From the NCBI GenBank assembly GCA_026210745.1, contig CP110632.1, forward strand, positions 4,587,001 to 4,651,000: a stretch of 64,000 nucleotides of DNA, read 5' to 3'. The stretch is from Exobasidium rhododendri. Taxonomy: Eukaryota > Basidiomycota > Exobasidiomycetes > Exobasidiales > Exobasidiaceae. Under the pieces are notes generated by a model, which saw only the letters and a program-made list of their open reading frames with translations, did no database searches and was not told the DNA's origin. Positions within the stretch are counted from its first letter, which is position 1. Every line of letters begins with the position of its first letter. A program made the position numbers and the translations under genes. Below, piece by piece: positions 15,691-57,492 of this stretch.

Positions 15691-16976
15691 ATGCGAAAGA
15701 TAATTGCAGTCCTTGCCGATGGTAACGTCGGCGTCACTACCAAAGTCGACCATCTTGAAAAGGACGAGAAGAAGCAAAGAAGAAGAGAGTACCTCGAATA
15801 CGTGAAGATGAACGGGAAGCTGCGAACGAACGCAGGTCTCCATTTGAATTTCGACCTTCGAGTACCTTCAAAGGAGAAAGAACGAGTAAAAGGCCTTAAG
15901 GGATGGAAGGTTAACGGCAAGGTATAGTACAGTCCCCATTTGACTACTGGCTGTTTGGGAGAGAAAGCTGAAGCGCTGCCCATCCATTCTTCGTCTCTGC
16001 ACAGGTTTCTGTCGCTACCGTTTCCTGCAAGCGATGTCAAGAAGTGAACACATTACGACCCACTGATATGGAACCTCTGAGCTGTTTAGTGCGAGCACGG
16101 CCTAAGAGTGTCAAAATGGATGGATCGCAGAAGTGTGCCCTTTGCATTATACTTGGAGATGATACAAGTGCAGATTGCAAAGCTTGGGGTGGAACTATTC
16201 CCCAGCCAAGAAAAGATCTGTCTAAGAAAGCTGAGCAAAGTAGATCAGACTCGGAAATAGAAGAGACGGAAGACACTGACTCGTCAACATTTTCGACAGA
16301 CAATGATAGTGAAGCCTGGAGTAAAGTTCGACAAATTCGTCGAAAATTTCCCAGAAAGAGCATGAAACGACCACGACATTCGTACGACCGACGCAACAAG
16401 ACAAAAGGAGTCAATCGGAGTTCGTGCAGCGGCGATGAGACAATCACTCCCAGATATGAAAAGACTGAAGGAGAATTCAGCAGCCAGCGGTCCGAGGACG
16501 GAGATTCTAGATCGGAAACAGAGGTGGACACCTTCAAAGGACGATCACTAATGCAGGAAGATGTTCGCGGCAATAGCGAGGGAAGTTCCAGCAATGTGAC
16601 ATGCCGTACATCAGAACTTGTGCCAATGAAGAAGGGTGTTGAGGAATCGGACAATTTTATAAATCGACGCACTAGCAGTCTTAGTGCAAGAAGCATCGAT
16701 CGCAGGCAAAGTGACGATGGAGTGATGGACAGATTAGTCCAGGAGGAGGAGGAGGGAAGCCTCGACTACCTAAAGAAGAAATGCGAGAATGACAAGAAAG
16801 AAGTGACAAGGCTGGAGCGCAGAGCAGTGGAGCTCAAAATTGAACTAGAAGAGAAGAGGAAGGAAGCTGCCGTATCGCTTACAACATACACGTCAAAGCT
16901 GACGGAAGAATTACAACTGATGGCCCAGCCGGAGGAGAAGGATGTGTCTCTTCGGGTGGTAGCGGAAGAGCCGTGA
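15691..16976 (+). CDS. Cysteine-cluster paralogue A (uncharacterised, coiled coil)
   Basis: Two exons, 15691-15921 and 16005-16976, joined by an 83-nt phase-0 intron, give 400 aa. Exon 1 encodes a 77-aa basic module ending GLKGWKVNGK. Exon 2 opens with VSVATVS and then a six-Cys motif: Cys85, 88, 104, 121, 124 and 135, spacing C-x2-C-x15-C-x16-C-x2-C-x10-C. The rest is charged and Ser-rich, with a coiled coil near residues 335-380 (LDYLKKKCENDKKEVTRLER). Paralogues B, C and D nearby share the layout. The motif resembles the fungal Zn2Cys6 binuclear cluster but with expanded loops, so zinc and possibly DNA binding are inferred, not shown. I do not recognise a named family. The start is the first in-frame ATG. 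Confidence 0.75.
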
Positions 16977-17226
16977 TGTCGGGGAGTGGACGAAGACAAG
17001 GGGCGGACAATGTAATGCGTACTATGTATACATATCACCCGTGATGAGTCTACATCGCTTAGCTCGAGAAGGGAAGAGAGATATTGCTGTGCGGGCGCTG
17101 TTATGCGTGGGCGGGGGACAGAGGAAGAAATGCTGACTTGAGATCATTTTGAGGGGAAATATAGACAAACGCCTTAGTGCAACTTTTGAAAGGCGCTAGT
17201 TGAACCTGACAATAGCAACAGAGACA

Positions 17227-18576
17227 ATGGCTGAATCAGAAGTGCCCATCCGTACCGTCATCATGGCATCGACAAGTACGTCGCAGGACACACCCGCTGA
17301 TGGTCCAGTCGATGTGAGGATCGATCTCAGCCATCTCACTGAGAAGAACGTCGCCTCTCGTCGAAGACAGTACGAAGTGTGGGTAAATCCGAGTGGAACG
17401 ATCACGAGCGTGGCGGGCACTACTTATAAATTCGGCTTTTCAAACCGCTCCACTGGGAGGTTTGAGAAGCTCTCTCGATGGTTCAAAAATGGTCTTGTGA
17501 GCACTGTAAAGAAGCACTAGTGCGTGTGATCGTTACGAGCTTGCGGCTGACCATCAGTGTTGCTTCATGGAATTGTTTTATCTTCAAAGGTTTCGGTCGC
17601 CTTGAAGCCTTGTCGAAGGTGCAGCGAGATTAATTCAGCTCGCGACCCAGAGGACCCTCCATGGATTTGCTTTGTTTCAGCCTATCCGAGCAACGTCAGG
17701 TCTGACGGGGTTCAGAGATGCGCATACTGCAGCTTGACAGAGCCTTCCAAGGGAGATCCCTGCAGAGCAAAAGGGAGAACAATCATAGCTTCTGAGCTGA
17801 AGCCAGAAGGAAAAGAAGGGGCAGATAGGGACGACACCAGTGGAATTTCAGACCCACCAAGCCGACAAGAATCTGACGACGAAGAGTATTTCCCTAGCTC
17901 TCCTGCAAGAAAGTTAGTGAAGAGAAGCAGACGTAGTGGTGTGAAAGTAGCAAGCGCAAAACCAAATTACAGCAGGATCACCAGTGAAAGCGACGATAGC
18001 ATGGACGCTACGGACGACTTTGGTCGAATGAAGGAAGTGCAAGATTTTACTATGAGTCATCTATCGAGCCTGACCAAGGAAAATAAGGATCTCCTCAAGA
18101 GGGTGAAAAAGCTCGAAGAAGATGTGAAGAACGAAAGAGAGAGTGGAAAGACGGAGAAGAAAAGACATATTGCCGAGCTCCGCTTTCAGGAGCATGACCA
18201 TAGGAAGCGATTGGAGCAGCTGCAGATGGAGAACATAGAAAGGCCAAGAACGATGAGCAGCAGCCTTGCGTGTGACAGGAGTTCATCCGACACAACAGAA
18301 GTAGTAGGGCACACAACGGAGGAATCCGATCGGAGCTTCTTGCCTGCCGGCGAGGGAAGCCAAAGTACGGCAGATGTCTTAAGTCTCGCAAAGGAGGAGC
18401 TACAATCAGCACAGGAGGCACGCATTGCAGCTGAAGGCTGGGTCTTGGCTGCGGAAAGAGTTGTAAATCGATTGCAAGCACAGTCGCAAACCCTATCGAG
18501 GATGAAAGGCGGCCAAGATTCTAACTTACAAGTGTCAGGAACGGCCGTTGTGGTGCTTGGGGAGGAGGTTCTGTGA
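17227..18576 (+). CDS. Cysteine-cluster paralogue B (uncharacterised, coiled coil)
   Basis: Two exons, 17227-17496 and 17590-18576, joined by a 93-nt phase-0 intron, give 418 aa. The N-terminal module (about residues 28-90) contains VDVRIDLSHLTEKN, then YEVWVNPSGTITSVAG and a final WFKNGL. The six-Cys motif is Cys98, 101, 117, 134, 137 and 148; its spacing C-x2-C-x15-C-x16-C-x2-C-x10-C is identical to paralogue A. A long coiled coil spans about residues 245-310 (LTKENKDLLKRVKKLEED), and a second helical stretch lies near the C-terminus. The intron falls seven residues before the first Cys, exactly as in A. It lies 250 nt downstream of A on the same strand, consistent with tandem duplication. 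Function is unknown. Confidence 0.78.
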
Positions 18577-19595
18577 AAGGAGTGGACTACAGCATCGCTG
18601 CACCCTGATCAGATTTGAAGGACGTCTTGACGTATTCTTTCTTCCTCACTGAGCTCTCCTTGGCGTCCCACAATCTGTAACGATACGTTCCCTACCTGCG
18701 CACCAGGTATCAATGCTTTGAAAAGTGGGAAGCCTCTTTCGCATCACGATAGGTCCGCGCTAATTTCTGAGAAAGTCGCCAAGAAAAGGGAAAAGACGCT
18801 AGCTGGAGTGGCCTGTCACCCTGTAAAATATTCAGCATATGAATTGAATGCTGACAGTGAATGATGAGGCAAATTTGCGACCAAAGGATCTCAATTCTAC
18901 CGTCTATGTACACGACTTGATCTCTGACGCCGCCGGATGACGCTGAGAAGATGACTCTTCAGACCCTCTGGGCGGACTTCAATTATTTGGGGCCCAAGCG
19001 TTCACGCATTCAAATACACCCCTTTACTTTCCAATCGAAAGAGTGAATCGTCCATTTACGCTGACCTGAATAGCCGCCAGAGGAGTGCGCTGCTCTTGAA
19101 GTATGAATTGTGTGCCTTGTGATTCGAGCAGATGGTTGGTCAGGATAGAAATCGTGGGTGCGGAATTTGGTCTGATGGACGAGACTGCGAGTACATCTAG
19201 GGCGGTAATCGAGAGTCCGCAAAGAGAGCAGGACAAACGAGCGCCATGAGAAGGAATTGCATCGAGTCGGACCTAGAGAAGAGCTAACTGACGTTTGTAA
19301 CACACCTTGAATTTGCGAATCGTCTGCCTTCCCTACACCTCTATACTCCGACTTTCAATCAATTTCACGTCAAGACAATTATACTGGCGCCCTCATTGAC
19401 TGTGCCGCAATACTGTAGTGCATGCAGCGACGCACTAGAGGAGCACGATATTTGATTGTGAATTGTTGAGGCCCAAGCGCTCTCTCATCACGCTAGACAA
19501 AGAGCGTTGTGAAGTCCGCGAGCTCAACCAATTCTGAGTTGCAGGATTCCATTCGGCCGCTTCTCTATGTCTGCATCACAACCATCATCAGCTCG
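18577..19595. other. Intergenic region inside the paralogue array
   Basis: About 1 kb between paralogues B and C. A minus-strand frame at about 19024-19290 includes a CSLC motif and a possible splice acceptor, but no complete gene model could be built. I see no recognisable remnant of a further paralogue. Confidence 0.35.
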
Positions 19596-20863
19596 ATGGA
19601 GGAGACAAATAGCCTCGAGGAAGGAAAAAACATACAACACATTGGAGAGCCTCACGTCTACATAGATGCAAGGTGTCATTCAACTGAGCCACCGAGAGCC
19701 AATAAGAATACGTATGAGAAGAGAATCGATCAAACTGGGCGACTAAAGTTACATGACGGAGAAGTACTTCACTACGATTACATCTTCACAGGCAACGAGG
19801 CAGCGCGAGAAAAATTGGATAAGGGAGAAGTGAGCTTTGATACACTGATAATACTAGATGGGATTTGATGGGGGGGTGGCTCTAGAGACTTACCGTTCCA
19901 CTTCACTCTTCACACTTGCAGATTGCGAGAGCAGAAGAAACGTGTTGGAGGTGTAGCTGTGCCAATAAAGATCGTGAGCCAGGTAGTGTACCTGTAGTCT
20001 GCCTCAAATTCATCAAAGGACCTCAATGCTGCGTACTCTGTCATATTTGTCATCAAAAGTGTGAGCTGTACAAAGGACCAAGCTCAACAAGCAAAAAGAG
20101 CTCTGCACAGAAAGAGAGAGATTTGATGAGCGAGGGAGAGATGAGCAGTACGGATGAAGATTCGAGCGATGAGATGCCCATTCTACCTCAGAAGAGTATT
20201 CCGGCAAAACGTGGTAGGCCCAGTAAAGACCGCGTCCGTGAAATGAGCAGTCAAGGAGAGCGAAGGAAGCTTGACCTAGGAGAAAGCATGCTCACATTGC
20301 AGTCCATCGGCAATACAATCAAGAGGAAGCATGACAAGCTCAAGGAGGCATACGATGGACTCGAAAGGAAAATCCAGACACTGACTCGTAAGAACGCGAA
20401 ACTCAATGCAGAAGTAAAGGAAGTCAGAGATGCGAAGGTCAAAGCAGAGCAGCTGGAGAGGGAAAATGCCGAATATAGGCAGAAATTGTCGAAACTCGAG
20501 CGGCAGGCAAGGCATGCTGAGGAGAATAGGGTCAAGAATGCTGAAGAATTGAATGGGCGACAAGCACAAAGTCAAGTCTACCTTTGTCCAGAAGCTGGGC
20601 CAAGCGTCAGCAGTGCTTTGGATAAGGGGAAGGCAAAAGAAGGCGGAGAAATAGAGACGCATACAGGCGGCCAAAGAAGCTTAAGTCAAGTCAGGGAGGA
20701 GGTGCGACTGGCAAGAGAGCGTCATAGGATACTGACAGAACTACGCAACACTGCGCAAGCAAACCTTACGATCTCCAAGACTGCCACAGCAAAGCTCGCT
20801 TGCGAATTCTCAAATATGTTGGAGGAGGAAAAGCGACTAGCAAACGAGCCACTCGATGGCTGA
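19596..20863 (+). CDS. Cysteine-cluster paralogue C with AT-hook and long coiled coil
   Basis: Two exons, 19596-19829 and 19922-20863, with a 92-nt phase-0 intron, give 391 aa. The donor is the GTGAGC after LDKGE, the place where A, B and D have the NGK/NGL end of their first module. The Cys motif is Cys86, 89, 105, 115, 118 and 125 (C-x2-C-x15-C-x9-C-x2-C-x6-C), with three additional Cys inside it, making it closer in loop length to a classical Zn2Cys6 cluster. At residues 175-178 there is an RGRP AT-hook core (PAKRGRPSKDR), a minor-groove DNA-binding motif. A strong coiled coil follows (about 200-290, DGLERKIQTLTRKNAKLNAE). The AT-hook favours a nuclear, DNA-associated role by inference. 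The start at 19596 is the first in-frame ATG. Confidence 0.72.
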
Positions 20864-21290
20864 AGAGCATGTATTTGAGCAGAGGTGCCCCTTCCTCTAT
20901 CTGGACACTTCTATTTCTTTGTGATCGTTCAGTCCTTTTTACGAAATGAGCATTATGAAATTGATGTTCCGCTTGTCGAGTGATAAAAAGTCTGTCGAAT
21001 CAGTACGGCTGTTTACACAATTCGATACGAGATCACCGAAACGTGGTCATCGTGGCTACGTCGAAATACCCACTCCTGCTCAAGACCGATCGTTGCAATC
21101 TTCTATAGAGAAGACGAGCGCTCATGCATCTCTACATACACACACATGTGGATCATTGTAATTTCAAACAATTCCAGAACTTGCTTCCAAGTATCGATCG
21201 TCCTGCTTCCCTTAGTCGTTGCTATACACTCATCCTATCTGATGCTACACCTTCACACTGCCACATCGTATCTTTGCCTTGCCTTGAGTA
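20864..21290. other. Convergent gap between paralogues C and D
   Basis: Paralogue C (plus) and paralogue D (minus) end facing each other here. I looked for a continuation of D on the minus strand (a coiled-coil segment) and found none. Confidence 0.45.
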
Positions 21291-21946
21291 CTAGGAAGAC
21301 TTGCTGCCAGATCCGGTGGACTGTTGTGCGCATATCATGGCTCCCTCTTCAGTCGTGCAATTTCTTGTTCGAGTAGCGACACAATATGCGCAACGAGGTG
21401 ACGTAACCTTGTGAAACTTTGGCTTGTCAACCCTTTTTAGACATACGAAGGGAGGGCTCCCCGGTGGTCGACAAGTGTTGATCTCTACGCATCTTTGACA
21501 AGCGTATCTGGCTACCAAGACCTAAGAAAGGGGAAGGCAGGAAGGGGAACCACGGAACAGAAAACGGCAGGAGGAGAGTCCGTTGCATGCAGTCAGTACA
21601 TGCATACACTCGTCCTCTCTCTTGATGAGAGCTCTCAACATCTTCGCTGGACACTTCCCCTTCGCTTGTCTCTTATCTGCTGCATATAATCGCCAACCCA
21701 ACCCACCTTACCGTCTTTCTTCCAGACGCTGACACTCTTAGAAAGCACAGTCTGTCGGTTCAAGAGGTCAAAAGGCAATCTTTGTCCGGCTGCCGTCTTA
21801 AGCTGGCCTTTAGGATCACACCATTTTGTATACATGCGAGCTCTGGCTTTTCTGACTCGTTTGGACAATGTCTTGATGTCGACGACGACGTTCATCGGAC
21901 CGTCTCTCATTTGCACGACTTCCTTGCGACCGGATGCAGTTGTCAT
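21291..21946 (-). CDS. Cysteine-cluster paralogue D, short copy without the coiled coil
   Basis: Two minus-strand exons, 21946-21707 and 21521-21291, joined by a 185-nt phase-0 intron, give 156 aa. The N-terminal module aligns with B (NVVVDIKTLSKR, then PKGQLKTAAG and WKKDGK). Exon 2 starts VLVARYA, then Cys88, 91, 107, 124, 127 and 135 (C-x2-C-x15-C-x16-C-x2-C-x7-C), with a further Cys at position 97. Translation stops about 29 residues after the last Cys, where A, B and C continue for roughly 265 more residues. So D is either a truncated paralogue or a naturally short form carrying only the two conserved modules. Its intron is longer than in the others. It is the only copy on the minus strand. 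Confidence 0.68.
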
Positions 21947-57396: not shown

Positions 57397-57492
57397 AGGC
57401 CCCGACGAGACTCGAACTCGCAACCTTTTCGGGATCAGTTGGCTTTGCACCAAGTAGAAACGAAATAATCTAAACCATTGATCTACAAGGCC
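57397..57492 (-). tRNA. tRNA-Arg (anticodon UCU) with a 22-nt intron
   Basis: The minus strand folds into a full cloverleaf: acceptor stem GGCCTTG/CGGGGCC (seven pairs, two of them G-T); D stem GATC/GATT; anticodon stem TTTCG/CGAAA; variable loop AGGTT; T stem GCGAG/CTCGT with loop TTCGAGT. The anticodon loop is interrupted at the canonical position after base 37 by a 22-nt intron (57433-57454), leaving loop TTTCTAC with anticodon TCT. Exons are 57492-57455 and 57432-57397. A T-run follows the 3' end, as expected for a Pol III terminator. The discriminator base is T. Confidence 0.9.

Follow-up and report, generated by a model that had tools for sequence, protein, structure and literature searches.

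A locally clustered gene family with a two-part, six-cysteine domain in Exobasidium rhododendri

Six clustered genes and the unit they share

A stretch of 64,000 nt from the rhododendron gall fungus Exobasidium rhododendri CBS 101457 (C3:4587001-4651000; assembly of 17,647,348 bases in four contigs), here called the window, carries four neighbouring genes, A to D, which share a six-cysteine motif and belong to a family of six. The genome is attributed to Li et al. 2023 in an excerpt of PMC13010171. Coordinates are window positions unless prefixed C3. An earlier note on this DNA, made from its letters, had proposed a family of four neighbours. With introns removed, the four motifs were found where it had placed them, the array running from the start of A (15691, plus strand) to the start of D (21946, minus strand); the number four holds for the window, and two further members lie upstream of it. 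These are gene E (C3:4536222-4537721, minus strand, about 49-51 kb upstream) and gene F (C3:4559979-4561544, plus strand, about 25-27 kb upstream), so that the six genes span approximately 73 kb of one contig.

Each gene is composed of a first exon encoding an N-terminal module of about 78 residues and a second exon that opens with the cysteine module. Gene A (plus strand) has a first exon of 77 residues (15691..15921), a modelled phase-0 GT...AG intron (15922..16004) and a second exon (16005..16976) in which an acidic patch, a basic patch and a coiled-coil-like segment come after the six-cysteine motif (16026-16178). Gene B (plus strand) consists of exon 1 (17263..17496, 78 residues) and exon 2 (17590..18576, residues 79-406, motif at 17611-17763); its model matches the annotated protein CBS101457_006808 in the protein database, including the intron, while the introns of the other five genes are models. 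Gene C, also on the plus strand, has the most diverged N-terminal module (19596..19829, 78 residues), and its second exon (19922..20863) holds the motif (19943-20062), a basic patch with the stretch KRGRPSK and coiled-coil-like segments. Gene D lies on the minus strand; its first exon (21707..21946, 80 residues) has a splice donor ambiguous by one codon, and its second exon (21291..21521, motif at 21357-21500) encodes the cysteine module alone.

The spacings between the six cysteines, C1 to C6, are 2-15-16-2-10 in both A and B, 2-15-9-2-6 in C, 2-15-16-2-7 in D, 2-15-17-2-7 in E and 2-15-16-2-17 in F. Three distances are thus fixed in all six genes (C1-C2 at 2, C2-C3 at 15, C4-C5 at 2) and two vary (C3-C4 from 9 to 17, C5-C6 from 6 to 17). 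This bears out what had been read from A to D, namely a constant x2 and x15 between the first three cysteines, identity of A and B, and a difference of D in its last loop only; the upstream copies keep x2, x15 and x2 as well. Additional cysteines lie nearby in C (residues 91, 114 and 121) and D (97 and 144).

The six-cysteine motif had been taken for the conserved unit. The module itself stands, but it makes up only about half of the conserved unit, since the N-terminal module and the position of the intron are conserved too. A phase-0 intron separates the two parts in all six models. The modelled intron of F lies three codons earlier than in the other genes, and F may be read through, because its reading frame stays open across it. 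Residues invariant in all six proteins (B numbering) are M1, G14, V18, Y37, G52, A82, C86, C89, N93, R96, P102, C105, C122, C125 and C136; those around the motif include an Asn four residues after C2, an Arg seven residues after C2 and a Pro three residues before C3.

Relatedness of the six genes and searches for known relatives

In order to assess whether the six genes form one family, we built leave-one-out profiles for each exon and searched them against the 3224 open reading frames (ORFs) of the surrounding 131 kb. For both exons, the omitted member always ranked straight behind the five training members. Genes A, B, D, E and F were recovered with E-values of 7.2e-18 to 3.1e-11 for the cysteine exon and of 2.4e-17 to 8.3e-13 for the first exon. 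Gene C was weak, at 0.055 for the cysteine exon (best non-member 0.15) and 0.024 for the first exon (best non-member 3.3), and it is the least certain member of the family. We retained it because both of its exons, taken separately, point to the family, and their order and intron phase are those of the other members.

The full six-cysteine pattern occurs in 7 of the 3224 ORFs, six of which are the family, against an average of 1.2 in shuffled sets. The partial pattern C-x2-C-x15-C is unremarkable (13 ORFs, including the six, versus 9.65 in shuffled sets), and it is a poor diagnostic, since it can also be read, mostly as C1-C2-C5, in 19 of a set of 30 ordinary Zn_clus domains from the same genome. 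As the earlier note had described, a Glu-Ile/Val-Asn-Thr/Ser stretch follows C2 in A, B and D. The pattern C-x2-C-x-E-[IV]-N is found at six places in the genome, three being these genes. Of the remaining three, one is a short frame and two are unrelated proteins, of which one carries a normal Zn_clus domain further downstream; all three were set aside. Such a frame, at about C2:5115838-5116170 (C2 here denoting a contig), encodes a normal Zn_clus domain with CPKCQEVN 69 codons upstream and in frame; it lacks the x15 spacing and was rejected as a family member.

Ten protein queries against the 17.6-Mb assembly (E-value up to 10) returned no copies beyond the six loci, although B's first exon was not queried separately and the match counts are lower bounds. 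Exon 1 of A matched exon 1 of F, E, D and B at E-values of 1.1e-7 to 0.074, and exon 1 of C, as a single query, matched no paralogue in the genome. A profile scan of the 131 kb placed these six genes, and no others, above the inclusion line, the profile having been built from the six themselves.

The strong divergence of these genes, the weak relationship of C and the fact that B was the sole annotated protein recovered in database searches could also mean that the frames are decaying or spurious, or that they encode secreted effectors with no metal-binding role inside the cell. However, the frames are open, the intron and the cysteine pattern are conserved, and all six frames show a synonymous-codon bias towards five neighbouring conserved ORFs (z of 3.0 to 4.1 against a random-codon null; the frame of E carried one extra codon in this computation). 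The codon scores of the six frames (-0.02 to 0.04) are for the most part lower than the training ORFs' own scores (0.02 to 0.11). Inspection of the first 30 residues by eye showed no evident hydrophobic leader, no predictor having been run. We give scarcely any credence to the explanation by decay or secretion.

In none of the six genes did a Pfam model reach its curated cut-off (rows inspected up to an E-value of 5); the hit to a well-described domain that the earlier note had named as a refutation is missing at that level. Sub-threshold rows such as vWF_A (0.059) and DUF7057 (0.32) for exon 2 of A and Phage_CI_repr (0.035) for the cysteine region of F were not used. Sequence searches of the PDB gave no convincing match, only single poor rows (6nuk, E-value 0.33; 6y5n, 1.8), likewise not used. 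A large protein collection yielded nothing beyond the record of B itself. Such negatives cannot prove absence from other species, since the search requires shared five-residue words, one search scored no more than its top 7999 candidates, and none of the paralogues A, C, E and F surfaced. No publication on a six-cysteine family of this kind was found in the literature, as judged mainly from listings. Thus, we conclude that these genes represent a genuine, previously undescribed family with a two-part domain, in agreement with the earlier suggestion of an undescribed paralogous family.

The cysteine module and Gal4-type zinc clusters

In solved Gal4 structures, a helix lies at the CxxC of both half-sites; zinc ribbons and treble-clef fingers have two CxxC pairs. 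AlphaFold2 gave a poor model for B alone, with a predicted local distance difference test score (pLDDT) of 49.4 overall and of 33-36 over residues 81-130; when an alignment of the family exons was supplied, the ten-residue mean pLDDT of residues 81-130 was 83-93. Helices are predicted at residues 87-95 and 123-128, starting at C86/C89 and C122/C125, so that the model of B has a helix at each CxxC, as Gal4 clusters do.

The cysteines might instead bind one zinc ion through the two CxxC pairs, in a treble-clef or ribbon-like manner, with C3 and C6 otherwise used. The pairs are indeed fixed internally and the C5-C6 distance spans 6 to 17 residues, but C2-C3 is fixed at 15, C3 and C6 are invariant in all six proteins, and helices are predicted at both pairs, the last two features differing from ribbons and treble clefs; we regard a single-zinc site as improbable.

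According to excerpts of PMC6471507, PMC10141177 and PMC2447501, Gal4 clusters follow the rule C-x2-C-x6-C-x5-16-C-x2-C-x6-8-C, with C2-C3 always 6. The excerpt of PMC6471507 further gives C1-C2, C2-C3 and C4-C5 as always 2, 6 and 2, with C3-C4 and C5-C6 variable. The family resembles this layout in its two CxxC...C half-sites, in having the same three spacings fixed and the same two variable, in the predicted helices, and in a coiled coil downstream. It differs in its C2-C3 distance (15 in all six genes versus 6 in all 30 genomic Zn_clus domains read, out of 76 matches), in a C2-C3 loop that is not basic (1-3 Lys/Arg in 15 positions versus a mean of 3.7 in 6 in the 30 Zn_clus domains), and in the additional N-terminal module in front.

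The earlier note had viewed the motif as a Zn2Cys6 cluster with a longer first loop and had called for a comparison with Zn_clus profiles. As an analogy of layout the view is supported, but the comparison spoke against membership. Pfam scans up to an E-value of 5 gave no Zn_clus row for any of the six genes, none of the 76 Zn_clus matches in the genome (E-value up to 10) falls at a family locus, and an hhalign comparison of the six cysteine modules with the 30 Zn_clus domains of the same genome returned a probability of 2.3% over 11 columns. Together with the x15 spacing and the non-basic loop, these results led us to reject membership in Zn_clus (PF00172). That the genes are true, strongly diverged Gal4-type members with an insertion in the first loop would account for the identical order of cysteines and the identical pattern of fixed and variable spacings; against these absent matches and the character of the loop, it seems very improbable. 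The similarity is thus one of layout only, although the module may work like a Gal4 cluster.

C-terminal tails, proposed role and genomic setting

Genes A, B and C share an order of features behind the domain: an acidic patch (windows starting at residues 159, 159 and 143, respectively), a basic patch about 22-26 residues on (184, 185 and 165) and a coiled-coil-like segment (from 323, 217 and 209). All were called with a home-made score that has no calibration. The model of B, with helices at 219-302 and 338-385, is in line with the coiled-coil-like call, and by the same score E and F also contain such segments. The KRGRPSK stretch in the basic patch of C, seen by eye, presumably resembles an AT-hook, which has a GRP core; unlike in AT-hook proteins, it is one short stretch in one paralogue and has no hmmscan row. 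These features (patches, coiled coil and KRGRPSK) suggest nuclear, dimeric proteins.

Tentatively, we favour the explanation that the family comprises dimeric nuclear regulators that would bind DNA or chromatin and contain a two-zinc cluster. Local duplication and divergence would have produced a small gene family with a new two-part domain, made of a putative alpha/beta N-terminal module and the six-cysteine module. The latter is probably zinc-binding; two zinc ions would most likely be bound by its six cysteines, forming a compact cluster whose half-sites are laid out as in Gal4, each from a CxxC where a helix begins and one later cysteine, but whose C2-C3 loop is longer and not basic. The basic patch of A, B and C would likely serve nuclear import and/or DNA contact, and their coiled coil, which E and F carry too, may serve dimerisation. 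The domain-only paralogue D possibly competes with the long forms. The possible role in DNA or chromatin binding that the earlier note had put forward is plausible.

Several observations weigh against this explanation. The C2-C3 loop is non-basic, which makes a Gal4-type reading of DNA unlikely. E and F are devoid of the acidic-then-basic order of A to C, and D stops after the cysteine module with no tail. For gene C, AT_hook (PF02178), a very short model, gave no row at E-values up to 5. The model of B has a predicted template modelling score of 0.29 and is weaker over residues 51-80 (60, 47 and 68), and its alignment consisted of six related proteins only. In the second of two fold searches, the rows listed covered mostly residues 215-306, which form the coiled coil. 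Neither search had a solved Gal4-type chain among its 50 listed rows, a negative that tested the coiled coil alone and is uninformative on the domain, because the coiled coil filled the rows.

The loop also fits a structural zinc platform for protein-protein contacts, i.e., a scaffold of the nucleus or cytoplasm that has long coiled coils and does not touch DNA. Long coiled-coil-like segments occur in five of the six genes, and the sub-threshold Pfam rows of C and F are mostly coiled-coil models (CENPH, 0.0017; BBP1_C, 0.006-0.008). However, both the strong basic patches that follow the domain in A and B and the KRGRPSK of C fit a nuclear, DNA-near role, and D has the domain with no scaffold part at all. 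We consider a scaffold a real possibility, albeit a doubtful one, and even then the domain family would be undescribed.

In its fullest form, the regulator explanation would describe an independently evolved two-zinc, six-cysteine cluster, fused to an alpha/beta module, binding DNA or chromatin, locally expanded in Exobasidium and including a natural domain-only competitor; taken with all these parts, it is rather unlikely. If two zinc ions are truly bound, the module would represent a second way of building the binuclear six-cysteine layout, with a loop length that, according to the excerpt of PMC6471507, never occurs in the Gal4 family, and it would be joined to a module with no known relative. 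The family would then be one of regulators grown by local duplication, with the sequence drifting outside the metal site. Inventories of fungal transcription factors that rely on Pfam miss it in any case.

The six genes sit among ordinary conserved genes, with about 330 kb to the contig end. The genes around E and F encode eIF3a, a HOOK protein and SPT16; glutamate synthase and ATG2 lie between F and the window, and NOT1, a ubiquitin hydrolase and an R3H/SUZ protein precede A. The ORF after D (1054 codons, minus strand) has no Pfam match and is rich in FG (Phe-Gly) repeats by eye. ARAGORN reported one tRNA in the window (57397-57492, minus strand) of undetermined type with a four-base anticodon, tcta, which is probably spurious or a misread intron. 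Outside the window, the glutamate synthase frame (about C3:4566770-4575385, minus strand) matches Hom_end (E-value 1.8e-05) and LAGLIDADG_3 (5e-05) at residues 1783-1832, a homing-endonuclease-like stretch that suggests an intein or its remnant.

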